This document shows, piece after piece, positions 2,769-60,436 of a DNA stretch of 64,000 nt; positions within the stretch are counted from its first letter, which is position 1, and each line of letters opens with the position of its first letter. A model generated the notes under the pieces. The model was not told the DNA's origin and ran no database searches. It was given only the letters and a program-made list of their open reading frames with translations. Origin of the DNA: Antitrichia curtipendula. Taxonomy: Eukaryota; Streptophyta; Bryopsida; Hypnales; Leucodontaceae. Made by a program: the position numbers and the translations under genes. The DNA lies in NCBI GenBank assembly GCA_951230915.1, contig OX579638.1, forward strand, positions 23,392,696-23,456,695, in the 5' to 3' direction.

Positions 2769-5700
2769 CTAAGCTTCATAAGCTTCCTTACTGAATTCAA
2801 CTGGCAGGGTTGCCAAATAGGCCAGTGGGTAAGGTGAAGTGGACTTTCCAAAGCTGAGACACCACTCAGGAACATTCTCAAGCATCTTTGCAGCTTCAGG
2901 TGTGGTAATGTCAACATCTGTTCGCAGCTTCAGAAGCTTAGCTGCATCTAGGTCGGTTATATTCTTGGACCACTGCAGTGTAAGCAAAAAGTTTTTTGGG
3001 TCACCGGCGCCAACAAAGTTGCTTTGGATATAATACCAACCATTCACCCCATCAATATCACTGGCAGGTATCAATGGAGGAGAAGAAGAATCCGTCACAG
3101 CTGCATCGAGCTGCATCCTTGATATCTTGTTTGAACTGATGGCAAGAAACCAACGGCGAGCTTTCCCAGCATTCAACCGCACTGTCGTCACTCTTGGTGG
3201 ACCCTGATCATCATTGATCACTAATAACGAAGGTCTGTCCTTCCACAAGCTGTCATCAAGTGGAACGGGTTTCTGACATCCATATTTCACCTTGTACGTT
3301 GCGAAGTCCAGAGTGTCGTTTCGAGAGCACACAAGGTCTGCGTCGTTCATGTGTTTTGATTCTTCGCTCAAGCTGCCCATAGTTAAAGATGCCAGTGAGA
3401 GAAACGACTTTGAACCACTTCCACCTTCATCAGTGTTGATAACATGAACCACATTAATGGCTCGACCTGCGTCTGGAGTGAAGGCAGGGAAGACACTGAG
3501 GGCAATAGCTGCTAAAGACACCAGCAATAGAGCTCCAAGTGCTCCAAGAACATAAGGAAGCCCTCCTGAACGGTGAACGTATGGAAGCAGGTACACAAGC
3601 ATCAGGGTCGTCATTGTTGCACATACACAGGCTATCATCACGCTCCCCGTCCATTCCGGCAAACCACCAGGACTCCTGTATGGCAAGTCGAATCTTTGTT
3701 AGTGGACTACAGAAGATGCTTCATAAAGAACTCTTCGACCAAAAACAAAATCGGAACAAGTACTGACCGCAATCTAAAATACGGTAGAGGATTCTAAAAC
3801 CGTTAAAGGTTGCCAACAGTATATCAATTCGCACGCTTCGTTGGGTTTCAATTAGCAAGTTGGGTGTCAGTATGGCTTGGCTAAATGCGTAAGGCCATTG
3901 AATTTAAATGGAAATGGGTTTATCTTCTGTCGCTTAGAATGATCTACAACCTCTCACTTTGAATTTGCATAACTAATAAAATTTTGATCTCAACAGATTT
4001 GACTCTTGTAACCAAAGATCTCTTCACAGTTCTATACATCACCCAAAAAATCACATTCCTGAATATGTGGAAATTGTTTAAAATAGTGATTTTTCTTCCA
4101 GCTACCAAAAGCCGGGTGTCACTTGCTTACAACGAAGTAGATAACACCAGCTTCAGGTAGCTAGAAGAAAAAACTCGCTTAAGGTGAAGCAAATAGTATC
4201 CTTTACCTTAGAAGCTCAGGATTTTTTTCAATTACCTGTCAAAGTTCACAAGCATGTTGATAAGCATACGAGGAAAATGGAAGGCTGGCAAAGCCGTCAG
4301 CACAGCTGGCGCAAGCACACCCAGCCAGAATGTCAAATGTCGCAGCTGTCTCAACTCCTGTCGAGGTGAGAGGCGAATCTCCAGCAACCCGTATGCTACA
4401 GTAGGGCCAACCACCCATGCAAGTGCTAAGTAGGAAGCTCCGGCGTTTGCCCATGTGGCCAATCCAAGCACAAGTAACCATTGCATGATCCCCGCTTTGT
4501 ATAGCCATCTCTCTGCCTCCCATAGAACTGTGACCGGAGCATGTTTAACTAGGTCTTTCAGTGAACTGAGCCGACTTGATTCCGTGCTGTTTCGTTGCTC
4601 TTCATCAACGTGCCAAAGATACCCAACCAGCAGCATATGGCCAAAATGATGGCCAACCAAAGCACCAATAGCAGCCGGAATACAATACAATGGGATTACT
4701 AACCAGGGGGAAGCAAAGAACGGAATGGCCGCACTGCCTAAAGCTGGAACAATGATTGCAACGAGGAGAGTGAAACCGATGGAAAAACACCAAGTGAGAT
4801 AGATAGTCAAGAATCCTAAGCCTGCGGCAATCAGGGAAGGAATTCCTGAGAGGTAAATGGCGCTGACTTGGAGTACTGCAAGCTGACACATAACGGAATA
4901 GTGGAGTAGCTTCGCAAAGTCCTGCGTATAAGTCAACATGTAAAGCCCCAAGATATCCCAGTAAACAACGTCCATGTTCGAAAATTCCGGAGCAGATGAC
5001 AAATTACGAGATGCAAGCTCTGATGATGTGGCTACTTCGCGTAGGAAAGGAAGCATGTTGTCCCCAGAATGTTGTAATGATCCTGGTCGCAAAAGCTCCA
5101 ACTTGTCATTCTTAGTATGGTACACACCTGCATTCTCCATAAAAGCAAAATCAAGTCCTGATAGGCCTGCGATTTCTCTGAAAATCTGAAAGTCCGTAGC
5201 CGATTTCACCAGACCAGAATGGAATATATCCTGAGCAAGCATCATGGTGGCAGGCCACTTAGCCACTTTGGCGAAGGTGTCAATGAGCCACCTATCCGGA
5301 CCACCTTGAAACAGATAACTCTTTCCACCAACACCCATAGACTCCAAATCTATAGCGCCACGGATCGATTCTCTCCATGGATGCTGGGTCATAAAACTAT
5401 GCGCTCCAATTAAACCTTCTTCTTCACCTGCATGATGGGAGCCTTGCTTCGTCAAGAGTACAACGTGAGCTCCTACATCAAGATTACACGTAAGCTGGCA
5501 TTGCCACTGCTTATGTATGTAATCGTGGAACTCATCTGTAGCCATATGACGAGGTGACAAGTCATCTAGAAACTCACACAAGCCAAAAGTTTCAACAACA
5601 CTACCCTAGGAAAAGAATAAAGTCTAATGAGGAGATTTCACTTTACCTGTGTTGAAGAGAAATATGACAGAATGTTTGAAACCTTGGGCCCAGTGGGACA

Positions 5701-6825
5701 ATGCACGCACCAATTCAAGCATGACACCTACACAAGAGCTGCAATCCCCAGCTCCTTCGGCTGTGATGACTGTGTCGATATGCGAAGATACCAAAAGTGC
5801 ATTCTCCAGGGCACTATCCTCGTATTTAGGGTGTACACGCACAACTACATACTTCAATCCAGAATAAACTAAAGACCTTCCTACAAAAAGTCCTTTATTA
5901 AGTTGGATTACTCCTGCACTTGGGTGAAAGTAATCTACCTCCACTTCCACCTCTAAATTCGCTGTCTCTTGTACCTCTGTGACCTGGTCACGCACGTACT
6001 GCAGAAAAAAACACGAGAAAAACTCTACAGTTAAATTTTTCCAAACTTCATAGATTAAAACGTGACCACAGTCTCTAATGTCTGTGCTACCTGATCTAGT
6101 AAGTAGTGAAGGAAGAAAAACACTAGCCAAGAAATCGATTCTGTTGTGCTGTTCAAAAGCATGTTGCATGAAAAGCACTCCAAATCCAGGTAGAAATAGT
6201 GGTGGTTACCATCCACACCATCCGTTTTGGAAACCTGATCTCCCACAATCTCGTTCTCTCAAAAGCAGCACAGTTGAGTGATGTCAGGACGTGTTGGAAC
6301 ACCCTTTTATGCCCAGAGTTCCCCCTATGGGAAATTCAGGTACTCACAAGCCATTGAATCCTGTGAGAGTCTAATCTTCCAAATCCCCCAAATAAAAATA
6401 AAATAAAAATTTAAAAACAAAAACAAAAAAGCCCCGTGTACCTGAATAGCACGATTTAGGGCGTCACTGCCCAGCGGATGAGGTCCCAAAGAAGTAAGTG
6501 CTTTTACATGTCTGTAAGCTCGTTCTTCAGAAAAACCCCTAATTCCCGCCGCTCTCTCAGAAACCGGCGAAGGTAAAACCTCTGTCTGATATCGAAAAAC
6601 CCACCACATCCCGAACAAAAGTGACACAAGCATCGACAACCACTCCGCAGCAGCTCTTCCCCTGCTGGTCTTGTTCTTCTTTTTCATGGGATTCACAGCT
6701 TTAGAAGCACGCAAAATCACTTCAGAGGTCTCGGAAACATCGTCATCTGGCAAAGGCTGCGATGATGACGGGTTCTGGGACGTCCGCCCATGTGTCTTGG
6801 ATCGCCGCGACACAGATTTCGCCAT
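2769..6825 (-). CDS. ERMP1: Endoplasmic reticulum metallopeptidase 1-like (M28 family)
   Basis: Membrane-bound zinc aminopeptidase-like protein of the M28 family (ERMP1/FXNA type), expected in the ER membrane with a lumenal peptidase domain. Four exons (6825-6442, 5998-5647, 5427-4236, 3675-2769) have GT-AG borders and join in frame to 944 residues, close to the roughly 900 of animal ERMP1. The order is a basic Ser-rich cytosolic tail, a membrane segment at about 60-78, the M28 domain at about 129-370, then several hydrophobic segments and a lumenal C-terminus. The M28 metal-site residues are visible: H201 and D203 in SSHIDTV, D213 in GAGDCSS, the E247-E249 cluster, E274 in DLESMG and H349 in GVYHTKND. 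I chose ATG 6825 (MAKSVSRR); the upstream frame to 6852 begins with GTG. All catalytic positions are kept, so it is probably active. Intron 3 carries a repeat shared with the neighbouring fusion gene. Confidence 0.92.
3897..4205 (+). repeat. Intronic dispersed repeat, copy 1 (ERMP1 intron 3)
   Basis: About 300 bp that recurs, diverged, in three introns of the fusion gene (15360-15610, 19795-19965, 22165-22375). Shared blocks include GGAAATGGG, a block like CTACAACCTCTCACTTTGAA, CCAAAGATCTCT, and a 3' block like AGTATCCTCTACCTTAA. All four copies have the same orientation relative to the host genes. No terminal inverted repeats or coding capacity are seen. Confidence 0.7.
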
Positions 6826-8914
6826 CGCTTCAATGTAATAAGAACTAGCCACCTACCGCATCCTTAAAAAATACCTAGTGAGTAGTGAGTGTCAATCGGT
6901 TCTTGACATCCACGCCGCTTCAAGTTGTGCTTTGGGCGCAACTGGGCCTCCCCTCTGAGTGTCAAAATCAGTAAGCTTAGCAACAGAACTTCAGTGGAGT
7001 TTGATACAATTTCTCATTGCGTGCACCGCTAGACGGAAGCTTCCACGAACTCTCATACCCAACCATCACACCAAATTTAAACATGAAGACTAGTAGATAA
7101 GCAACCAAGACATAGACTTTCATGCTTCAATCTAACTTTTGGGATAATCCTAAAATCACAAACAAATAAATCGCACAAGTATTCAAATTCAGATGTGGAC
7201 AATTTATGAGCAATGCCAAAGCTGCGAGAGCCTAAACACGAGGGCAATTCTAACTCACTCTACAGAAAAGGAGGTTGTTGAGAAGAAAACACACAGAAAT
7301 TCAGCGCAGCTAGTCTTTGTCGAAGACCGCTACAAATCAGCACGTCATTTCTTCAGAGGGGGGATTTTACAGTGCGATCTAAACTTCAACTCTCAACAAC
7401 ATCAGCTAAAATCTTCCACACCTAATTGCAACGCGCCTAACTAAATTCGACACTCCAACATCTTACACAAGATTTCCATATTGATAATGAGAGCTTGAAA
7501 ATTAGAAACTCGTGTTGCGATTAGGTGTAATTACCTTTAAAGATACTGAAGAACAGTAATGAAAACTCAAGTGAACCTCATTCCTAGCAGTACTGTACAG
7601 CAGAAGACCATACCCTAAGTTAACAGTTCCTCAAAAGACACGTTAATAACAAGAGCTAGCAATGGCGACTGTAGCGCAGAGTAGCGAGAGGATGAACCCT
7701 AATACTGTAAGATTGAGGCTGGACAGGACAATGAAGAAGAAATGAGCACAAACAAATGGACAACTTTGGCCCAAACGTCCGAACTTAACCCTTAAACGGT
7801 GGGTTTGTGACTACGGAAATCATCCCTTTTGGTACCATGTGAATCATTGGCTTTAAAAAATCATCCAAGAGTGCTCATTGGAAGTCAAATTATGTGTGCA
7901 AGACCTTCCCTTTTCATACCAAATTTCAAGGATGAACATCTGTACTTTTGTCTTATACAGAAAGATTCTCTATCATTTATCGGTTGAAAATTGGCCATGG
8001 AGTTATTTAAGGATTAAAAAATGGACTGATGACCACCGTTTTGAAGCCTCACTATCCATCACTTTGTTTGTTGCCATTTTGCACTTAGATATGAGTAGGG
8101 GTTGTGACATTTTCTTCTTCTTCCCAATCTTTAGAGAAGACGGTTTACTTTCCATTGAAGACGTGGCACTCTTTCCTTGAATTGCGGAGGGCTCATTCTC
8201 TGAAGATTGAGATGGGTTTTTTTGTCCACTTGAGGTGAAGAATGGATGTGAAATTGATGTGTATTTAAGGAGGGCATGGGATTGGAGCTGGAAAGAAAAA
8301 TTGAACCCAATGGATTTTTTTCTTACTTTGAATCATCACAACCTTGATATTTCATTTTCTAAGGTAGGCATCTTGATGAAGTTTGCTTAGCCTTCTACTA
8401 TCCTTGTTATGTTAGAAAATCTCTAATGTGGAATAATTGATTTATCAAAACTTGACTTTCCACCTCCCTCCACAAGTTCTTCATTAAGGTTGTGAACAAT
8501 TGCATTTATCTTAAGTGGCTCACATTTCTATAAAGCATTAGAATTTGGTGCCAAAATTATTATGTGGTGCATCATTTTGGCATGCATTGTATCACATGAA
8601 TTGACAAAGCATCCATTGCTATAGAGAGGTCTTGACCTCAGTTGTCTTATTGAACTCCATTGACAACATTAAATGTTTTTCTAGTACATTGGAGGGTAGT
8701 TTGAGGCCTGTTTCCAATGTTGTTAACCAATCACTATTGTGAACTAGCCATTGCTAGTCAGAATTAAAACTTAAAAAAACACTTTAAAACACTTTAAAGA
8801 AAAAAAAACACTTTTATTATCATTATTTGATGTGGCAATCGCTTTGCCACATCAACATGTTGCTGTGGCCAAGTTCCTACGGTCCAAGAATTCATAGAAA
8901 TTCACAATCCTTAA
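6826..8914. other. Intergenic upstream of ERMP1-like gene
   Basis: This holds the 5' flank and presumably the promoter of the minus-strand ERMP1-like gene; no core promoter motif can be placed with confidence. No gene is recognised. A short hairpin at 8828-8854 has perfect 11-base arms (TGATGTGGCAA / TTGCCACATCA). A 27-codon ATG frame at 7662 resembles no known protein. Confidence 0.4.
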
Positions 8915-13176: not shown

Positions 13177-16100
13177 TCAGATTGCCTGAGCTAGGTTTGC
13201 TTCAGCAACCTCCACAGTGGCGCTGTCACGGTGCTTGATGACCCAGTCCACGCGGTCAAAAGTGCCAGCCAGCAGGCTGTGGGCTTGCGACACCACCAAC
13301 ACCGAGCTCTGCGGTAAACCTTTCAGCAAGGCCACCACCCGAGCTTGGCCCTCTCCATCTAAATGCTGCCACCACATTAAAAGACGTTGTGAACTTGGGA
13401 GGCAGATAAAAAGAAGCAATAAAACCTGAACTGTACAGCATAGTATGTACTTGACTTACTGCCCTCGGTGAAGAGATCTAGCCACTCGAAGCTTTGCAGT
13501 AGCACTGCGAAAGAGAAAGAGTCTCTCACAGCATAGCTGCTCGTTGAAACAAGTTGCATAGACGACTAGGCTTCCTAATGACCACTGAAAACTGGTATTA
13601 TAAAAGGAGATTCTATCTCAAGTGTCAAGAAACACGAACCTGAAGAACTTCATCAAGAACGAGTAGGTTGCAATGAATTCCTCCACGTTGAGAGGCAAAT
13701 TCTGAATATCCCAATGCCAGAGCCAAAGCCTGTAAAAGGAGAAACAAGCAACAAAATTCTCAAAACAGGCAAGAGCATCCTCTGGTTCATGCCAGGTTCA
13801 TGTTGTTTTTCTCAAATCCTTGCAAAACAAAAGACTTGCAGACATTGCAACGTTCGTTAGGAACGAAGAGTAAGGAAGACATGCACAGCTATGCGAGATC
13901 CACAACTGCCTGACGTAGAAGTGTACTGGGTAACCAAGACATAACTTTCACCTGTAAATTAAATCAAGACCGTCAGGTTTTGGAGATCTATAGCTCTCTA
14001 AGGACGGGGTTATGACTTCAGGCACTCCTTTTTTCAACCACAATGCGCCATGTGGCGATGAAAGCAAGCGGAGAGGGTAAGGAAAGCAGAAATCTAGAGA
14101 GTGAATTCAGAGAAACTTGCCATTCGCCTCCGTTCACCGCCACTAAGTTGGCGAAGAGACCGATTTTCTAAGACCCCATTAGAAAGCCGAACCACAGCAA
14201 CCTTGTCTATAGCCTCCACAGTCACTTTACTGCTCTTGGTCACCTTTGTAGGCCGCAGCAGCAGGCCAAGTGAACCGCCAGATAACATTTCCAAGAAACG
14301 TGCTGTCCTTTCTTGCACGTCTGCCAGAGCGCCCTCCAGGATGTAACTCTGCCCACAAAACAACGGTTCAGTGTATTGCACAATGATTGTTGAATTGTCT
14401 GAGGTCCACCTCTCATTGTCTACAACCATGAGAGGTCTATAATCATGAGTTTCCTTTTTCTTAAATGCATGAGGCCTTCTTTGTTCTAGTTCTCAAACGG
14501 CGATTTTGATTTCAAGGTGCTACGACCCTAGTTTGATGAATATAAGAATGACCGAGACATTGGTTATTACCAATCGAGCGACTTCTTTATTACAAGCACG
14601 GGATCTTCTCACTCATGCTAATGATTCAGGACCTTGCATAGTGGTTATGATTCCAAGGTAGCAGGACCACAGTCCAAGCAAACCTGAGCTTACCTGAACT
14701 CCTGTCAACCCAAATGCGGTGTCGATTTGTTTGAGCCAAGCAACCTCTGCACGCCGACTACTAAGAAGCTTTTGTTTTTCCTGGTATTCGATGCCAGCTT
14801 TCGCACATAAGGTGGAAAGAACCTCATACTCAGTTTCGTAACGATTCCTTTCCTCTTTGGCAGAATGACAATTCATCTCCAGTTCTTCAGTACGCCTCTC
14901 CGTCGACACCCTTGAGTGGGCCTCTGTGTGAAGTTTCTGAATGAGGTAGAGAAAATCACGTTCCCGGTTTGTGAACTCTTCAGAATTGCCCTCAATAATT
15001 TCACTGACAGTCAATCCATCAAACCATTTCGAGGAGCTTGAGGCAGCAGGAGATTGCCCATGCACAAGAGGACGCGCACTGTTAAGAACCATCTGAGCCT
15101 CTGAAATGTGTTGCCGCATATGGTTCAGCTGCAAGACAAATAAGATTCATCAGACTCTCAGATGTTCCGGAACTTTCTGAAAAACATAGAGAGCAGTGAA
15201 GAGTGCTAAAGGTTAAAAACCAAAAAGTGAATAACACTATAAAGTAGACACTAAACCGTAAGGACCTCATCCCAGGTCCTATATTGACCCTGTTAACATT
15301 AGATGTTAACTTATCAATTCATATACGCGGTTGGATTCATTAACAAGGACTGTAAGAATGACATGGCTGAAGGTCTATGGCCACTGATCTTTGGATGGAA
15401 ATAGGGTTGTCTACATCATTATTAGTGGTCTGCAACCTCCCACTTTGAAATTGCATAAGAATTTCATGTACAGTGATAAAACATTGGTATCAAGAAATTC
15501 AGCTCTTGAACTCCAAAGGTTTCTCGTTAGCAATATACTGATCTCCCCCAAATCACACTTATTCATATGCAAAAATGCTTAAAGTGATGCAGAGAGTAAT
15601 CTCTACCGTAAGTAAAAGGTGTCTCATGATAGGTACACAAGATTGTGAGCAATAGAGAAGCCTAAAGTTTTGACATATGGAGGGCAGGAAGGACGGGCAA
15701 TTAGACCTGAGAAATAATTTTTGAGGAGGCCTGTTTGAAGGCCACTTGCACCTGCTTTGCTCTAGAAGCCTCTGCCTCTCTTGTCTTTTTCTCTAGCTTT
15801 ATGGCTTCCCGAATCTTCTGAACCTCCGATTCAGCATTCTTGAGCTCCTGCGGAATACTTCACATAAGAACACACTTCAGGAATTCAAAGAAAACAAATG
15901 CATGAGTCTAAAAGTAGATATGAAAAAAACAAGCCCAAAACTGAAGGTTCAGTTAGAATGTATTCTAGTAGCTGTAAACAGTCACTCAGGCTGCATTTAT
16001 ATGTGCAATGTCTTTAAGTAGTCTCTCACCTTCACAACAAGATCACGTTCGTCAAAAGTTGTACTCAACTCGGCTCTCAGCTGCAAAAGGCTCTGCGAGG

Positions 16101-19100
16101 AGTGTGCTGCATCAATGGGTTGCAAGCACTTGTCGCAAACTACAGATCTTGTCACATTTTCCTCAAAAGCTTCAAGCGCTTGCTCCTTCTTTTTAATTGC
16201 AGCCTCCACCATTCGCACCTGGTCAGGTAAGAAACATATATGAAGCATTGTAGTCTCACAGATGGCAGCTACAAGTCTCTCTAAAAGCAAAAAACTCGAA
16301 ACTTGATCCCTAGGCATCCAGCTATTACCTGTTGGGAGAATTCTGCATGCTTCTGCAATAATCTTTCAAAAGAATCATTAGCGGTTGCTTGTTGAGATTC
16401 GTCAATTCGAGGAGGCACTGACCAAGACTCCATTCCATCCTTCAGTGCCTGCTCTAGCTCCTTCCTCAGAACCTCCCACGCAGTCACAGTAGATGACACC
16501 TGTGCAATAGTGCTTACCAAGATAGCATTTGAGTCTTGAAGTGTCTCTTTGGCAGCTCTTAGCTCTTTCTCAATGGTTGCAACTTTATTACCCCTGCATC
16601 AACATTAAATGTCAGGCACGGACTATACAAACCAACGAATAGTTTCGTGAAGCAAATATTTATTCAATAGCTAAAATATTGATACGAATCCACTGGTGCA
16701 GCACCTGCTAACTTCCCATTCCTGTGAACGCTGCATACAGAATTCCACCTACACACATAGTTATCTGTGGATCAGAATCCCAAAACGAGTGTGTGTGGTT
16801 CACTCACCGCAGACCTAGATCATAATCAATTTCTTTGCTAGCGCCAAAGAATATTGTTAGAATTATAGCTCTCACGTTTTACATCATGTAATAATAAAAA
16901 TTATAAAATAGGTTAAATAATCAATATCAGCTTAATCGTTCACTGGATTCTTTACCTTCATGCCTAAGATCTAGAATCTCACAGTAACTTTGGCTGGATG
17001 AATGAAAATTTCCAAATCAAGAGAAAACACATACCTTCCTCTGCAACTGTTCGTACTGTTTGCCAAGCTGTTCAAGTGCACCCTCCAATTGCTCAACTTC
17101 AGTCTTTTTACTGCGAAGTTCCTTAGCACTTTGCTCCTTCGCAACCATCCAGACTTCCACGGCCATGAATTTGCTTAATTCCTTCTGCCCAATGTATCAA
17201 AACCAGTACTGAAGGACTTAGTACTCAACTCCCGCATTTTGACCAGGATTGGTTGGAGTGGAGAGAGAGGAGTCTCAAGTTGCAACAACGCAAAGCAAAG
17301 CCCGTCACCTCAACAATTTACCCTAAAAAAAAGGACCAGAAGCCCAAATTGGGCCTCATGCATTTTTAGCAATTATTGAGTAGGTCATAGAGGAATTTCT
17401 TTGTCCAATTTTTATATTTTGTTTCTGACCAACACGTGCAATGTTCGTCACATATTTCTACTGTTGTAAAATTTGCCCCATCTAAATTATATTTTCACAA
17501 TATGATCAATCAGATTGGTCATTTTCAAACCATGAACTCTTCGTCCTTTAAACATTGAGGTGCATACGAGCATACCTTGAACTCTTTGTCCGAGGCCTCC
17601 AATAACCCTCCACCTCCATGCTGTCCTTGAAATACTGTCCGATAAAGCACAGACGTGTCACTACAAAACTTGAACAAGTCAGTGCTTTCACCAGATTGTC
17701 TAGAACCAGCAGCGTGACCAGATAAATTTTCAGCAACATTCACGGGAAACTACTAATTGATAAACGGAGCTTACATAAGCTCATCAATACGAAACTGCGT
17801 CATTCGAATTTCCTGACAAGTCAAATCCTCTCCATCGTATAAGAACTTCAGACTGGCTTTCCTGCAAATCAGAAGTACAGAATGCCATTCATTGTAGTGT
17901 AACTTCAAGTCAAAATGTGAGCTGATAAAGACGATGAAAGATAAGAGTCCCAACCCTAGGCACCAAGATTACCGAAAACAAAGCTCAACAGAATACAGGT
18001 GTAGAAAAACTCTTTCAACTGCTATACCAGAAGTAACTAATGGAAACAAAATGAACCATTCAAAAACAGTACAACACACAGAATGAGCAGATTCTTCCTC
18101 TTACAGGTTCAATAAGATTTCAATATTGGACAGTCGGACCTTCATTTCAGTTAGCAGTCAGGAGTAAGAAAGAGTTAACTTATATGTGTTGACCAATTTT
18201 TTTTTATTGTTAATAAAATTGACACTACTAATTAAACCTCTTTTAGCTTTTTCCATTCACATGGCCATATTCATCCAAGCTAGGCTGATTGTTCCCAAAA
18301 GCAAAAGGAAAGAGGCAACACATTCTACCTTGTCAGTGGCTAAAATTCAACAAACAAGTTTTCAAGATTAAGTAAAACTAGCTTTTGAGATTCTAAAAAT
18401 TTAGACTAGGTTGGAAGGTGAGAAGGAAGCCGATCGCTAACCATATGGCAGTTTCGATTGCAAAACTAACATAGATAATTTAGCTTAAATGTGGCATCCA
18501 TTCTAGAGGTCCGACTGCATTCTAAACATGCAACAAAAGGTAGATGTCGAAAATTGGTTGCAGTGTGGATCTCACCTGCCAGTCGTTCTTTCCACTGTAA
18601 AAGATTTCCCATTGATTGTCCCATCAACTCGAACACGTGCACGCTTAGCAGCACTATGCACCACTTCAACTGAAGGAAGTCCACGGACTGAGTCTGGGCG
18701 TGGATCAGTTGTGCCTGAGACACCATTTATGCAAAATTCATAATATAAATTGACGATTTTGTGCACCAAGACATCAGATATTAGAATTCAGTAAGATATG
18801 GTAGGAAGAATGGTTAAGGAAACACAGCAAGTTTTTTCTGGACGAGTAATACAATGTCAAGACCGGCACCTGTAAGGGCCCAAAGGGGAGCCATAACAAG
18901 CGTGGTTTTCCCAGCACCATTGCTGTCAGCGCCCACAGTGTCCAAGTTCTTTCCAGAAACAATCCTAACGCCTCTCTGTGAGAGCGGGTACTTTGCAGAT
19001 GTCAAAAACGCCCCAAAGCCCTCCAGTTCAACAGACTCTAACTCACAGTGCACTGCAGATATCCACCATTTGGATCAGGATTCTGAAGATATAGGGAGGC

Positions 19101-22100
19101 CTCTCCATGAATTATGAAGAAGCTTCTCTTTATGATATCGTTAAAATTTTCCTGAAAATGGTTACTTTCACTAAAAACCTATCATATGCTGAAATAACCA
19201 ATCGCAATCAATCGAGGAGTGTCGATCCTGCAAGAGGACTCTCGGTGTACAATACCGCCTCTATAATATTATAATATTATCAAACTAAAGTAGCGCATGG
19301 AGACAGATTAGACAGAAGGATTTAAAGGCAGCAGGAGCGGGTTGAAACAGTCACCTTGAGGCCTCTGAATAAGTTTGGCAGGCAGGTTTAGGCTGCGAAG
19401 CATGTCCGTCGCCATTCTTACGACATTGTCATTCATATCCACGCTTTGAGCGTACAACTCAAATAGACCAAATACATCCTGAAAATGAACGTAGAGCACA
19501 GCAGAGTTTGAGGAAGCAAGTTATGAGATGTAGCAATGTTACAGCTTCATTCTCAATCTCAGTATCCTTCAAACTTAAGGGAAATTAACAAATGTGTCAT
19601 AAAACTCAGTGAGATAACCATTACAACCGTCTCTGTTGACCCTCACTCTCTCGAAGAAAACTTCAGTGAGATAGAAAGATTTATAAAAACCAGGAAATGA
19701 CTTACAAGATTCTCAGCTTCCTTGATCCGTTGCTTAAACGTAACAATCGGGAAGACTACGTCAACCGAAACTCCTCTTTCTTGAAGTTTTTCCTGGTCAT
19801 TAGTACATTGTGATAAAATTTACATTGACCTCAAAAAATTTAGCTCGTGTACCCAAAGATCTCTCCACAACTACATACATCAATCCAAAAAACAGATTCT
19901 TACGTATCTCAAAATGCTCATAAGTGACGCACATAGTCTCCTCTACCTCAATTAAAGTGCCCAGCATTGGATCAGCAGCTTAAAACAAAGAAAATTGGAG
20001 CTTACCAATTCCAATTTTACAGAGTCCTCGAGGATATTTGAAGGGAAGTGCCAGCGCACTCTATCACCCTCTTGGACGTTTTTGAAGATCTCAGAAGGAG
20101 ACTTTTCGTCCTGTGTGATAATGAAGTGTCTAGGACCGATGCTTAATGGAATTTCATCAATTTTCTGCAAACTCAATCACCCCATGGAAACTGTTAATAT
20201 CTGCCTTCGAAGGTTCTTCCAACATTGGAAAAGTCGCACCAAATGCACCTCTCAAACATTCTGTACATTGATGAATGCAAATCACATGACCATATTCGTT
20301 AAATTTGGCATGTTTCATATCGCCAGAACAATTATAATTAAGTGCAGAGATCTAAAACTAGGACTGGAATAGAACTGAAGTTCAAGCCAGGCGTCTAGAA
20401 AAGTGCCAATTTCTTGGAATCTTGCCATTATAATCAATATGAAAACATCAAGTTCATAAACTAACCAGTAAGTGTTCAGCGCAAGAGTCCTCATGCTCAC
20501 CTGCCATTCTTTATCAAGAACTAGGAAACGCTTTGTTTGATCGCATTCCCCTGCCGAAACCTGATACGGGGATCCCACATACTCGATGCGGGTGCCCTTC
20601 ACCACATGAGGCTTATGATAGTGGCCTGTGTAAACAGGCAGATCTTGTGGGAATACAGATGGTTCAATTCCCTCTTTTGCCTGACTTGCCTCATTCAAAA
20701 AAGCTCCCACCTAGATAAGAGATCACAAAAGGTTACTAGACGAAAAAACTATAAAAAAGGTAACCAATATCAATAGACTAACATTTCCCATACACGTCCC
20801 AAATACGGGCATGGTGTGAAACGTCTTTTAGCTATGGTCACAATCGATTAAATGACGGATTTCGATGGTCCAAAAAATTGAGATTCAAGTGCTCAAAAAT
20901 GGATACATTCACGTGGCCAGATCGGCATTGAGGTGGCTAATTGAACCGTTGAGCTCTAAAATCTAGGAAGAGAATAGATATGGAGTTCGACTGGGCTCCA
21001 GTTATCAGTCGGGCGACCTAAAACTGCTCTGGTTCCTCAAATCTCAGTCATTACAATGCCCACTAGTTCCATGAAATTCCACCATTTCAATGAATATGAA
21101 TCAGCTTCTACCACATTCCAAGCTTCAAAAGCAAGAGTGAAAACTAGACAAAAAAACACTAAAAGTTGAGAATTTACAATGTCCACATGAGCAAAAATGG
21201 CGTGTATCTGTCCATGCTCCAGCACAGCCTGCTCAATGACAGAGTGGTCACGCCGAAATGGCAGCCACAACGCTCCCAGGTACTCCACTGGGCTTGATAA
21301 CACTTTGATGCGAGGGTTGGCTGCTTCAAGTACTTGCAAAGCATGTATTTGCCCTTCTAAATTCACCTGAGAAAATGAATGTAAGCTTAGACTCCTCATT
21401 AGTCATTAATTCTAACTCAAGTACACGCTGCCCTCCTCAAGTACACGCTGCCCTCCTCAAGTCTTGCAATGTGAAGTCACTATTAGCGAGTACCTGTTGA
21501 AGAGATTACTACACATGAAGATGGCGCTGGATACTATAAAGCTGTACTAATAAAATTCAGTCTCTTGAATTTGTTGGCACTGGACCAAGGCGATGAAGCA
21601 TAGCACCACAAATCCATAGTGAAGAGAGAAAAATTGCGAACTTCTTATGGATAATGCTTGTTGCTACTCAAAGACGGAGTCCTAGTCCCTAACATGAAAT
21701 AAGCTGTATTAACAGTGCAGGTACACGCTGAAATAAGCTACGCCTCCTGTAGGTTTGTGGCTGCTCCACGAAAGGCAGAAAGTAGAATCGTTCCTTATTT
21801 CAACTTGACAAGTTTGCTAGTTTCATTGTCACACACCTGGTCATGGTTTCCAGGTATGAAGATGGCAGGGCACTGCCAAGACTGCAGCTCCAGGATGGCC
21901 ATATTCAGAAGCTCCACAGGTAAAGCACCTCTCGAATGCCAAAAGTCTCCCAGAAATATGATACCAGCTTTCCTGCAGCCTCCCCTTTAACTATCACCAT
22001 CTGATTGACAACCACGACCATTGGAATAACAATATTGAATCTCAATGGAAAAGTGCTCCTGCTTAATGTTCTAAGGTAGAGGATACTAAAGCAGTTGGTG

Positions 22101-23447
22101 AACTGATCCCATCTTCTATGGAGACCCCTATACCAACAGCAACTCATCAATTCATAAACTAGTCTTTGAATGGAAATGGGATTACCTACAGTCACTTATA
22201 GTGGTCTACAACCTCCAACTTTGAATGACAACATAAGGAATTCATGTGAAGTGATAAAACTTTGATCTCAAAAGGATCTTGTACCCAAAGATCTATACAC
22301 TAGAGATCTCCCAAGAATCTCACTCCTACATATGTAAAACTGCTTTGTAGTATCCTCTACCTTAATTCACACCAAATTTGTTTGCAACAGGAGAACCCGG
22401 GTGATGCTGTTGCCTCACCTTGTAAGTGCAGCAGCGTGCACGGTTTGAAGAACTTGGAGGCACACATCGCATGTGCGTCGACTTAAGTGAAGATCCGAAA
22501 ATACCACCCATGATTCAGGTTCGGCCCATACATCGGCAACCTAGAAACATCAAATGGACACCTTTATTTTAAAGTTTGAAACCAAATCAAGAAACTAGGG
22601 CTTTGTGCTACAAAGGACGAGAATATGGTCAGTAGAATGTCTAAAACTGTGTTATACTTTTAGTGCAATTCATAAGAAGAAAGTAAGGGTTTCCACTTAA
22701 AACAAAAAGGACCAAACATTCTTGAGCAGTAGTGGACTTTCGAGAACAGCGCCAACAAAAAGTTACTTCGAAGTCATGCCAACACGACTGAGAGCTCAAC
22801 TTTGGAAAATAAGGTGTCGGGGATTCCTTTCCAATTCAGAGGTTTTCTAGAATGTTATGAAGAAGATTATGATCCAGTAATTAAAACACTAAGTAAACCA
22901 CCTCCACTAATTCATAGTTGAAAATTCAACAGGGATCATTTTTTTAAAATGATAAAAATGCAACCTAAATTTCGTAATCAACTCGAAGCTCACGAAACAA
23001 GTACAGCCATTCCTCTTCCTACAGTCTACAAGGTGAACCTCTTCATGAATTGTGTGCACAACGAACTGGAATTTCGAAATATCCGAACATAATTCCGAAA
23101 TTTAAAAAAACAATTGCTCTGCGCACGCAAGCAAGCAATGTTGCAGCGAGGACTCTAATGCGCAACCAAGCAGGGAAAGAGCTTATTCAAAGGTTAAAGA
23201 AAAGACATACCACAGGCTTAGCAAGAGCTCTGACCGAGAGCGGAACGGTGGAGAAGCTCCTGGAGGTCGTTATTGTCGTTGCGGTGCGAGCTCGAATTGT
23301 TCGTCTTGGAGAGTTGTGAAGCGGATTGTGCACTCTGATGCGCAGTTGAGCACCATGATAGCGCCTGGTTGCCAAAGAAGAGTACCTTGTCTTGATGTGC
23401 AACACAAATGCGCGGACGTCGGAAAGACGCAACAAGGGCGCGGACAT
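13177..23447 (-). CDS. Single-chain SbcD-SbcC (Mre11-Rad50) fusion, putative organelle-targeted nuclease/ATPase
   Basis: 21 exons join in frame to 1156 residues: 23447-23211, 22540-22419, 21972-21837, 21366-21178, 20710-20501, 20164-20006, 19792-19706, 19478-19355, 19052-18870, 18714-18576, 17861-17775, 17660-17576, 17184-17035, 16730-16705, 16593-16329, 16218-16030, 15847-15707, 15128-14694, 14348-14121, 13729-13640, 13365-13177. Residues 1-79 are rich in Arg, Ser and Thr and nearly lack acids, like a plastid or mitochondrial transit peptide. Residues 90-330 are an Mre11/SbcD-type phosphoesterase with D95-L-H97, GDFWH 128-132, GNHD 161-164, H225 and GHYH 257-260. Residues 330-421 form a capping and linker part. 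The Rad50/SbcC-type ATPase starts at 422: Walker A GADSNGAGKTT 462-472, helical arms, zinc hook CDKC 761-764, signature LSGGERRR 1056-1063, Walker B LLVLDE ending D1090-E1091. All expected catalytic motifs of both halves are present. The likely role is ATP-controlled trimming of DNA ends or hairpins. One intron is GC-AG. Whether this plant fusion has been described I cannot tell. Confidence 0.9.
15360..15610 (+). repeat. Intronic dispersed repeat, copy 2 (fusion gene intron 17)
   Basis: Diverged copy of the repeat at 3897-4205: TTTGGATGGAAATAGGG, GTGGTCTGCAACCTCCCACT, CATGTACAGTGATAAAAC and an end resembling TAATCTCTACCGTAAG. Confidence 0.7.
19795..19965 (+). repeat. Intronic dispersed repeat, copy 3, partial (fusion gene intron 6)
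   Basis: Contains the right half of the family: CTCGTGTACCCAAAGATCTC, then CATCAATCCAAAAAACAG, and the block TAGTCTCCTCTACCTCAATT. Confidence 0.6.
21421..21460. repeat. Perfect 20-bp direct duplication in intron 3 of the fusion gene
   Basis: GTACACGCTGCCCTCCTCAA occurs twice head to tail (21421-21440, 21441-21460). Probably a slippage product; no function is suggested. Confidence 0.95.
22165..22375 (+). repeat. Intronic dispersed repeat, copy 4 (fusion gene intron 2)
   Basis: Contains TTTGAATGGAAATGGG, GTGGTCTACAACCTCCAACT, TTGTACCCAAAGATCTATAC and TAGTATCCTCTACCTTAATT, matching the ERMP1 intron 3 copy. Confidence 0.7.
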
Positions 23448-24639
23448 CGCTGGAAGCTTTGGAGTGCGACTTCACCAGCAAATTCAATGCGCAAGTCCCA
23501 TTGCAAAACCAAAAATCTCTGAAGCCATCAGCACTCTCGTAAAACCACCAGGCCCAAGACTCGTCCCCGATACTCCTCAGACTCCATCAACCTAGTGTAG
23601 TTCTAATCTAGTGTACCGTATATCTTCACAAAGGTCTAATTCCAAGTCAAAAACTATGACCTATGTAGATTTTGGGTTCAAGCCAAGCGTCTTGAACCAC
23701 ATCAAAGTAAATAATCCAATTTAACAAAATGGATGTCATATGCATTTTGTCACAACATTGTGCAACACTAAGCTACGATTCCATCCACAAAACCTCTTCA
23801 TTCTTTGAATCATTTCCTTTCCTATCCTTCCCTTTTTCTTCCTTTTATGAAGATCCGTCAAGCACAATTGCTATTATATGAGCTTAGAATCATGAGTCCA
23901 AAAGACTACAAACTTATATAATAACGATCTATATTTTAGAAACCTTCCATCACTATATGATACATATATTGTAGATAACATATATTGTAGATGTTTATAG
24001 TATAAGCACCTTCAATGGTTGTAGGATATCTACTTATACATATGCTTAAGGCTCATAGGCTTTCATTTCCATACTCACGTGCTAGCATTGTTGGTCCACC
24101 AAGCCAAATTCATGGAATTGCACAAATTTAACAAAATAGACGTTCTAGTATCCATGAACTTTCAAAGTAATCTAAGTTGTCTACTTTTTCTCTTGTCTAC
24201 TTTTCTTTTGGTCCACTTGCATCATTTTCATGCCTAGGAATGAAGAAATTAAGATGTGTTCTAGAAATAATAGATAATTCATTCATGAAAGTGAACTCTC
24301 TATCTTTACTTCAACTTCTTTTAAGAATGTTTCTATTTTTACTTCATTGCTTTGTTGGGGGTTGCGGTGTCAAGTAGAGAGGCCTTGCCTTGAAAAAATG
24401 CGAGGTTTTTAGCTGCAATTGGCTATGGTTCAAAAAATAAAAAAATTCTGTAATCATACAACTCACAAAAATAATGGCAATACTCTATGTAATGCCATAT
24501 AGACCAACATAATACCACATGCTCATATAATCCCCATAAGATACCATATAGTTTCAAAATATCTCATATATTTATAAAAAAATAGAAGAAATTATATATA
24601 AACCGCATAGACTTCCTTTGAAGAAGTAGCCAATACAAA
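23448..24639. other. 5' flank of the fusion gene and intergenic DNA
   Basis: The first few hundred bases are the 5' flank of the minus-strand fusion gene; they include a very short upstream ATG frame (begins about 23505). No promoter element can be placed securely. The rest is AT-rich; 23860-24105 resembles 27005-27415. Confidence 0.4.
23860..24105 (+). repeat. Dispersed repeat, copy 1
   Basis: Shares with 27005-27415 an opening like TGCTATTATATGAGC, a middle rich in TATATTGTAGAT-type motifs, and an ending like GCTCATAGGC...CTCACGTGCTAGCA. No coding capacity is seen. Confidence 0.5.
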
Positions 24640-58849: not shown

Positions 58850-60436
58850 GCAGGAGAGTCGAAGAAAGCTATTAAAGTTGGTGATGGCAGTATGCAAATG
58901 CAAAGCGTAAAATCCACGTGTGAAGCAATTGATCTTTTGAAGAATCGACTACAACAAGGCATTGCTATAGACTCGTACACATTTGTTGAAGTTCTACAGT
59001 GGTGCCTGAAGCAGGAAGACCATACAGCAGTAAAGCAAGTGCATGAGTTGCATCATTGAGAGTGGAAATGCAGCAGAATATCTATGTGGCAAACAACCTA
59101 TTGATTGTATACATCAGATGTGGGAGACTGAAGGATGCAGGAAGAGTGTTTGACGAGCTTAGGAGCAAGGATGTCATTAGTTGGAACGTCATGATTGGAA
59201 GTTATGCCCAGCACAGTTGTGCGAAAGATGCTATGGTAGCTTTCAATCAAATGCGCCAAGAAGGTGCGCAGCCGGATGCAGTTACTTATTTGAACATTCT
59301 GAAGGCCTCTGTAAGCCCATCAGTTTTAAAATGGGGCAAAGAGGTATATCAAAAATCATGGCTTTGAATCTGATGTGCGTGTGGGGATTGCGGTCCTTTG
59401 CGGGAATGTATGCAAAATGTGGGAGCATGAAGGAGGCAAGGAAAACTTTTGATAAGTTCGTCAGTCGCAATGTCATTTCCTGGACTGTGATAATCGGAGC
59501 ATATGCAGAAAGTGGTTGTGGTGAGGAAGCATGCCGACTCTTTCTTCAAATGAAACAAGAAGGTCTTAAGCCAGATGTAGTCACTTATGTGTGCATCTTG
59601 AATGCTTGTGCTACTGCCGGGACTTGGGATTGGGTGAAGGAGGATCACAGCCGTGCCCTAGAAGCGGAATTTGAATGGAACTTGCATGTGAGCAATGCGC
59701 TTGTCCACTTGTATGCGAAGAGTGGTAGTATTGATGCTGCGCAACTAGTTTTTGACAGAATGGAAGAACGGTATGTAGTCACATGGACTGCGATGATTGG
59801 TGGACTCTCGCAGAATGGATGTGGGTCTGAAGCTTTAGATGTCTTCACGAAGATGAATACATCCAGTGTGAAGCCTAATGGGTACTCCTTTGCGGCTGTG
59901 TTAACTGCCTGTAATCATGCAGGCCTTGTTGATGAAGGCCGTGAACTCTTCTAAGCTATACAGCAAGAATACGGCATCGTTTCTAGTGTTGCATTGGACC
60001 TGCATGGTGGATATTCTTGGGTGGGCAGGGCACTTGGAGGAAGCAAAGCTCTTGATTGATAATATGGCAGTTGAACCAGATGGAGCGATTGGGGGATACG
60101 TCTCATCCTGAAACAAATGAGATATATGCGGAGCTTAGCAAATTGACTACGATTATCAAACCGATACCTCGGCTTGTGTTGCGCGATGTTGATGACAAGG
60201 ATAAAGAGTTTTCTCTGTGCTCTCATAGTGAAAGGTTGGCAATTGCCTGTGGACTTGTCTGCGCACCTAGAGGTAAAACAATAGTCGTGTTTACAGGAAC
60301 CTTCAGGTGTATTCAGATTGTCATACAACAGCCAAAGTGATTTCCAAAGTGACTAGAAGAGAGATTGTGGGGGAGGGATGCAAATCGCTTTCCTCAATTC
60401 AAAGAGGGCTTTTGTTCTTGTAAAGATCATTGGTAA
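58850..60436 (+). pseudogene. PPR protein, PLS-DYW class, decayed
   Basis: Pentatricopeptide repeat proteins of this class bind organellar RNA and, through the DYW domain, deaminate C to U. The coding trace starts near ATG 58892. Repeats are visible as VANNLLIVYIRCGRLKDAG, DVISWNVMIGSYAQ, GAQPDAVTYLNILKA, MYAKCGSMKEARKTFDK, NVISWTVIIGAYAESGCGEE, VSNALVHLYAKSGSIDAAQ and NPNGYSFAA-like blocks. The DYW domain gives HPETNEIYAELSKL, LVLRDVDDKDKEFSLCSHSE, SDCHT and ends KDHW before TAA 60434-60436. Inactivating changes include a frameshift near 59055, another near 59345, a stop after DEGREL (59952), loss of most of the E region between EPDGA and SHPE (about 60090), a frameshift near 60290, replacement of the first Cys of CSDC by Tyr, and a frameshift near 60370. 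HSE with the putative catalytic Glu is kept. Confidence 0.85.

Follow-up and report, generated by a model that had tools for sequence, protein, structure and literature searches.

A moss gene for a single-chain Mre11–Rad50-type nuclease and ATPase of probable phage ancestry

The window analysed here is a 64,000-nucleotide stretch of the genome of the moss Antitrichia curtipendula (GenBank assembly GCA_951230915.1, contig OX579638.1, forward-strand positions 23,392,696 to 23,456,695). It contains one minus-strand gene that encodes a complete Mre11/SbcD-type nuclease and a complete Rad50/SbcC-type ATPase in a single chain. The gene starts with an ATG at 23447, its stop codon ends at 13177, and its 21 exons join without an internal stop into an open reading frame of 1162 residues. 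Nineteen of the 20 introns, which range in size from 110 to 714 nucleotides, are of the GT-AG type and one, between exons 19 and 20, is GC-AG. The limits, the number of exons and the single chain agree with a first-pass annotation of the same sequence, which gave a length of 1156 residues, six fewer. The final exon borders were guided by alignment with relatives and were then compared with the annotated protein P0001 of Ceratodon purpureus (1169 residues). Our initial model (23 exons, 1184 residues) contained two small exons and two borders that were wrong as judged from the alignment of the relatives and was replaced. We note that this earlier version was the query for the Pfam, TIGR00618/TIGR00619 and first protein-search results described below.

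All of the catalytic motifs that had been named for the two subunits are located in the 1162-residue model. Those of the nuclease are FSDLH (residue 93), GDFWH (128), GNHD (161), AHVD (224) and GHYH (257), and those of the ATPase are the Walker A motif DSNGAGKTT (464), the zinc hook CDKC (767), the signature LSGGE (1062) and the Walker B motif LLVLDE (1092). Metallophos, AAA_23 and SMC_N were matched over the Pfam cut-offs and SbcC_Walker_B slightly below its own. The predicted structure of the Ceratodon protein has a mean pLDDT (predicted local distance difference test) of 76 and a predicted template-modelling (pTM) score of 0.55, with a pLDDT below 50 for residues 1–80, and shows two helices (386–413) before the ATPase and then a long coiled coil. 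The top Foldseek match to this model in the Protein Data Bank is Rad50 of the Chaetomium Mre11–Rad50–Nbs1 complex (E = 1.4e-19), and the Staphylococcus aureus SbcD structure 7dog covers the nuclease portion.

The exons, all on the minus strand, follow this domain order. Exon 1 (23211..23447) encodes residues 1–79, an N-terminal extension of presequence-like composition (13 arginines, two lysines, one aspartate and no glutamate). The nuclease starts in exon 2 (22419..22540), which carries FSDLH, and continues through exon 3 (21837..21972; GDFWH and GNHD), exon 4 (21178..21366; AHVD) and exon 5 (20501..20710; GHYH). Exons 6 (20006..20164) and 7 (19706..19792) encode the capping region, and exon 8 (19355..19478) encodes the helices preceding the ATPase and the start of the linker. 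The ATPase half begins in exon 9 (18870..19052), which contains Walker A, and its N-lobe extends over exons 10 (18576..18714), 11 (17775..17861) and 12 (17576..17660); one border each of exons 7 and 12 was taken from Ceratodon. The coiled coil occupies exons 13 (17035..17184), 14 (16705..16748, only 44 bases), 15 (16329..16593), 17 (15707..15847) and 18 (14694..15128), and the zinc hook, as CDKCLQPI, lies in exon 16 (16030..16218). The ATPase C-lobe with its signature is encoded by exon 19 (14121..14348), which is followed by the GC-AG intron, Walker B by exon 20 (13640..13729) and the D-loop region through the stop codon by exon 21 (13177..13365). Two introns of the gene hold 40-base copies (15454–15493 and 22232–22271) that are 83% similar and are probably parts of a dispersed repeat.

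The protein is identical to that of Ceratodon at 934 of its 1162 residues (80%), and at just one position, in exon 1, the alignment opens a gap in the Ceratodon protein. Identity by exon, in which residues present only in Ceratodon were not counted, ranges from 49% in exon 1 to 100% in exon 20. These data bear on whether two adjacent genes have been wrongly joined or a decayed gene has been read as intact. The frame is open across all 21 exons, exons 8 and 9 at the junction reach 93% and 84% identity with Ceratodon and align without a gap in the window sequence, and one-chain proteins occur in several independently annotated genomes; we regard such an error as extremely improbable.

The fusion is a single locus in the genome. 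When the whole genome (400 Mb) was searched with the Ceratodon protein, all 20 matches fell in order at one place (C6:23405875-23416136, approximately 13180–23441 of the window); of the 21 exons, only exon 14 was without a match. Separate canonical genes coexist with it. All five matches to the canonical MRE11 model TIGR00583 lie at C10:20725946-20728854 (12 candidates scored) and all seven to the canonical RAD50 model TIGR00606 at C1:42582332-42595016 (nine candidates scored), and the fusion locus was matched by neither model in this genome profile search. The moss gene has domain types in common with the canonical MRE11–RAD50–NBS1 complex, which also gives its best fold match, but in this genome the canonical genes are separate and elsewhere. 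Other features of the window are pieces of a Tc1/mariner-type transposase (HTH_Tnp_Tc3_2 and DDE_3) in two frames at 1039–1812 on the plus strand, two exons of an M28-family peptidase gene at 4235–6205 on the minus strand and a fragment of a pentatricopeptide-repeat protein at 59181–59951 on the plus strand.

A search against other proteins, plant and algal ones included, found 67 full-chain relatives among 7990 candidates scored, and GNHD occurs together with an NG[AST]GK[ST] motif in 60 of them. Named sources include Ceratodon, Physcomitrium, Sphagnum, Marchantia, Riccia, Calypogeia and Diphasiastrum; in all, the species-named fusions come from mosses, liverworts, a lycophyte, charophyte and chlorophyte algae, a diatom, brown algae, Chromera and Eimeria. 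All of these lineages are plastid-bearing; slime molds have no plastids. The protein listings show neither a fern nor a seed plant by name; many of their entries are without a name, and only about 8000 candidates were scored per search. In our trees the green fusion sequences largely track organism relationships, so that within green plants the distribution is mostly explained by descent.

Mre11/Rad50 fusions are already known as a kind, and a moss member has been in print since 2011. The first-pass annotation had left open whether plant fusions had been reported and had held that MR (Mre11–Rad50) complexes are built from two separate gene products. The first point is answered and the second contradicted by Yoshida, Claverie and Ogata (2011; PMC3175470), who described 13 fusions, including A9RK34_PHYPA of Physcomitrella. 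Like the present protein, the latter is one chain with the nuclease before the ATPase and comes from a genome with separate MRE11 and RAD50 genes. It was placed outside the canonical clades; the present protein stands apart from nine cellular SbcD/SbcC pairs in our trees. The same source reports a 'moss-diatom-prasinophyte group' with 91% bootstrap, fusions in slime molds that lie outside the moss group and the retention of separate canonical MRE11 and RAD50 in fusion species. It proposes a viral source without a specific donor and suggests transfers via unidentified intermediates. No later paper on plant fusions was found in the open-licence literature. Relative to PMC3175470, the present work contributes a further moss, additional green lineages, a brown alga, Chromera and a specific virus gene pair next to the clade. 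What appears to be new in the distribution is that the fusion ranges from green algae over bryophytes to a lycophyte, in rough agreement with organism phylogeny.

The nuclease is preceded by 43–416 residues in all 19 eukaryotic proteins examined, whereas the phage genes L007 and L008 have no such extension and start a few residues before the first motif. The first 50 residues of the 19 proteins contain 0–5 acidic residues (median 1) compared with 5.7–7.5 per 50 overall, and in being mostly acid-poor the extension resembles an organelle presequence. Since separate MRE11 and RAD50 have been retained and this chain has a presequence-like start, an organelle (plastid or mitochondrion) would be its likeliest workplace, and the fusion protein probably acts on organelle DNA. 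PMC3175470 makes no mention of a chloroplast or organelle. The protein could instead be a nuclear back-up to canonical MRE11–RAD50, its N-terminus being merely a variable disordered tail: 2–5 acidic residues are found in the first 50 of six of the 19 proteins (Riccia, Parachlorella, Tetraselmis, Auxenochlorella, Ostreococcus and Volvox), and conservation is lowest in exon 1. The composition of the N-terminus makes a weak test, however, and some of these six gene models may have wrong starts. As the canonical-type MRE11 and RAD50 genes are complete, and as the extension is present in every eukaryotic protein examined and absent from the two phage genes, we consider a nuclear back-up unlikely.

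The best family matches of both moss halves are phage SbcD/SbcC-like proteins (phrog_100 and phrog_77; T4-type gp47/gp46). Both PHROG models are matched by the Ceratodon and Ostreococcus proteins, with scores for Ceratodon of 188.9 bits (phrog_77) and 109.3 bits (phrog_100). The cellular models TIGR00618 (SbcC) and TIGR00619 (SbcD) gave only 29.4 and 26.5 bits, below their cut-offs of 478.5 and 77.65. Profiles built from the eukaryotic halves single out one virus locus, L086. The nuclease profile scored 341 bits with L086, 34–171 bits with the other loci of L071–L090 and 16.6–38.0 bits with eight of nine cellular SbcD proteins, the ninth being without a match; the ATPase profile scored 421 bits with L086, 24.5 bits with one cellular SbcC and nothing with the other eight.

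Trees were built of both halves. Their eukaryotic rows were hand-picked (18 found proteins and the window), and viral rows were dropped beforehand as long branches or near-duplicates (ten from the nuclease and seven from the ATPase alignment in the trees with L086; 16 and 12 in those with L105, described below). Four further rows were left out of the ATPase tree, namely L079, without a Walker pattern, L089 and L099, which are truncated, and L090, which was not taken. The nine cellular SbcD/SbcC pairs, one of them cyanobacterial, are separate in the nuclease and ATPase trees (support 100/99 and 100/100). L086 joins the 19 eukaryotic fusions in each tree separately (nuclease, 100/100; ATPase, 100/99), as predicted for the capture of one gene pair. 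In earlier trees without L086 the nuclease half adjoins L007 and L008 (100/99), and in the ATPase tree joining with the same two loci is not rejected by the approximately unbiased (AU) test (p = 0.425). Judged from sequence, both halves thus belong with the gp47/gp46-type pairs of phages and not with the nine cellular pairs, and the specific virus gene pair lends new support to a phage-type origin.

The fusion of an acquired operon, as the first-pass annotation had it, is supported by these trees; its bacterial sbcD-sbcC source is not. An origin from such an operon, or from the plastid ancestor, might have been expected from the gene order of E. coli and other bacteria. E. coli SbcCD is also alike in motifs and fold class, but its genes are separate and its sequence distant. 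Some cyanobacterial SbcC proteins are weak matches, and one relative of the phage nuclease, L099 (CP070713.1), lies in a Myxococcales assembly. A grouping of cellular SbcD with the nuclease halves of the eukaryotic fusions is nevertheless rejected (p-AU = 0.0146). Scans of genome contigs confirmed none of 99 and one of 50 candidates, and that one, L099, clusters among virus contigs. Given the separation of the cellular pairs and the AU result we set a bacterial origin aside as quite improbable.

L086 is an 8.8 kb piece (15153–23926) of the 42.7 kb IMG/VR contig IMGVR_UViG_2716884848_000001 (42722 bases). Its nuclease gene (3977–5005) and ATPase gene (5002–7083) are unfused, overlap by four bases and are flanked by genes for a UvsX-like recombinase and a RuvC-like resolvase. 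Identity of its proteins to the moss nuclease and ATPase halves is 38.5% over 330 positions and 32.9% over 758 positions, respectively. Seven of its ten open reading frames match PHROG families, and it carries a recombination gene set; a terminase search across the contig gave no match, so its status as a virus comes from the IMG/VR classification and this gene set. No close named-phage relative of L086 was found (23 and 990 records, all with less than 60% identity), tblastn of the moss halves against named phages gave only 20–30% matches, and a search of plasmids found nowhere a match to as much as 80% of the Ceratodon protein. An open reading frame near L086 (L102:8959-10932) contains DNDCDGLVDE-type repeats, which we take to be of a kind found in Myxococcota-like proteins and which may hint at the host.

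We favour, with moderate confidence, the view that the moss protein is a phage-derived single-chain Mre11–Rad50-type end-processing nuclease whose likeliest workplace is an organelle. Its Mre11/SbcD-type metal nuclease is joined through helices and a short linker to the Rad50/SbcC-type ATPase, which includes the coiled coil and the zinc hook. By contact of their ATPase heads and hooks, two chains would form an M2R2-like machine with a nuclease of its own for every ATPase. By analogy with the Mre11–Rad50 family, the nuclease's access to DNA ends or hairpins would be controlled by the binding and hydrolysis of ATP, the presumed role being end processing and recombination of organelle DNA. Both halves would derive from a gp47/gp46-type nuclease–ATPase gene pair that plastid-bearing eukaryotes acquired early on and that green plants then passed on mostly by descent. 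Phage pairs are mostly two adjacent genes, whereas the moss gene is fused and spliced.

Several observations weigh against this view. Many SMC proteins are among the Foldseek matches, and overall TM-scores are low, the top match having 0.24, although a long flexible chain would be expected to score low. The PHROG models are broad and their scores are not strictly comparable with the NCBIfam scores. Among cellular proteins our trees cover the nine SbcD/SbcC pairs but no canonical Mre11/Rad50 of eukaryotes or archaea, so that the phylogenetic test of each half proposed at the outset was made relative to the cellular SbcD/SbcC pairs. The early trees without L086 did not resolve which phage lineage is the exact sister to the ATPase half. 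A single clade of the 19 eukaryotic nuclease halves without L086 is absent from the best tree but is not rejected (p-AU = 0.417). Finally, a second virus locus, L105 (L105:3992-6862; IMGVR_UViG_2716884565_000001), is one fused 957-residue nuclease–ATPase reading frame on a 79.7 kb contig, and it adjoins the eukaryotic clade on long branches (1.53 and 2.15). When it is added, L086 moves to a position within the eukaryotes in the nuclease tree (95/69), and the ATPase tree is not resolved.

L105 raises the alternative that the fusion was born in a eukaryote-infecting virus and transferred already fused, L086 being a later split or a side line. Mimivirus R555 is likewise fused in the same order, as given in PMC3175470, where it forms a separate group; it was not a row in our trees. 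The branches of L105 are long, however, and it could be host-derived; its contig has genes on both strands, and the neighbours are almost without Pfam matches. Fusion may have preceded or followed transfer, and for L105 the direction may be either way, but we think a virus-born fusion rather unlikely. In the last virus scan both halves were found in 41 of 68 loci, within 1.5 kb of each other in 36 of these and fused in two (L105 and L170). Three other fused virus loci (L009, L013 and L015) all group away from the eukaryotes, so that fusion has arisen more than once.

A fuller history can be put forward only tentatively, as a possibility short of even likelihood: a phage recombination nuclease operon would have been captured early in plastid-bearing eukaryotes, would have become a single-chain machine imported into plastids or mitochondria, and would have been kept in green algae, bryophytes and a lycophyte and lost in later vascular plants. 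In our view the moss gene would offer a clear example of a recombination module of viral origin that became a stable plant-cell component, with the gene pair still lying side by side in a virus. Because Physcomitrella and Marchantia carry relatives and are editable, a part of the single-chain MR nuclease in organelle-genome maintenance and the working of its two activities within one chain are directly testable.

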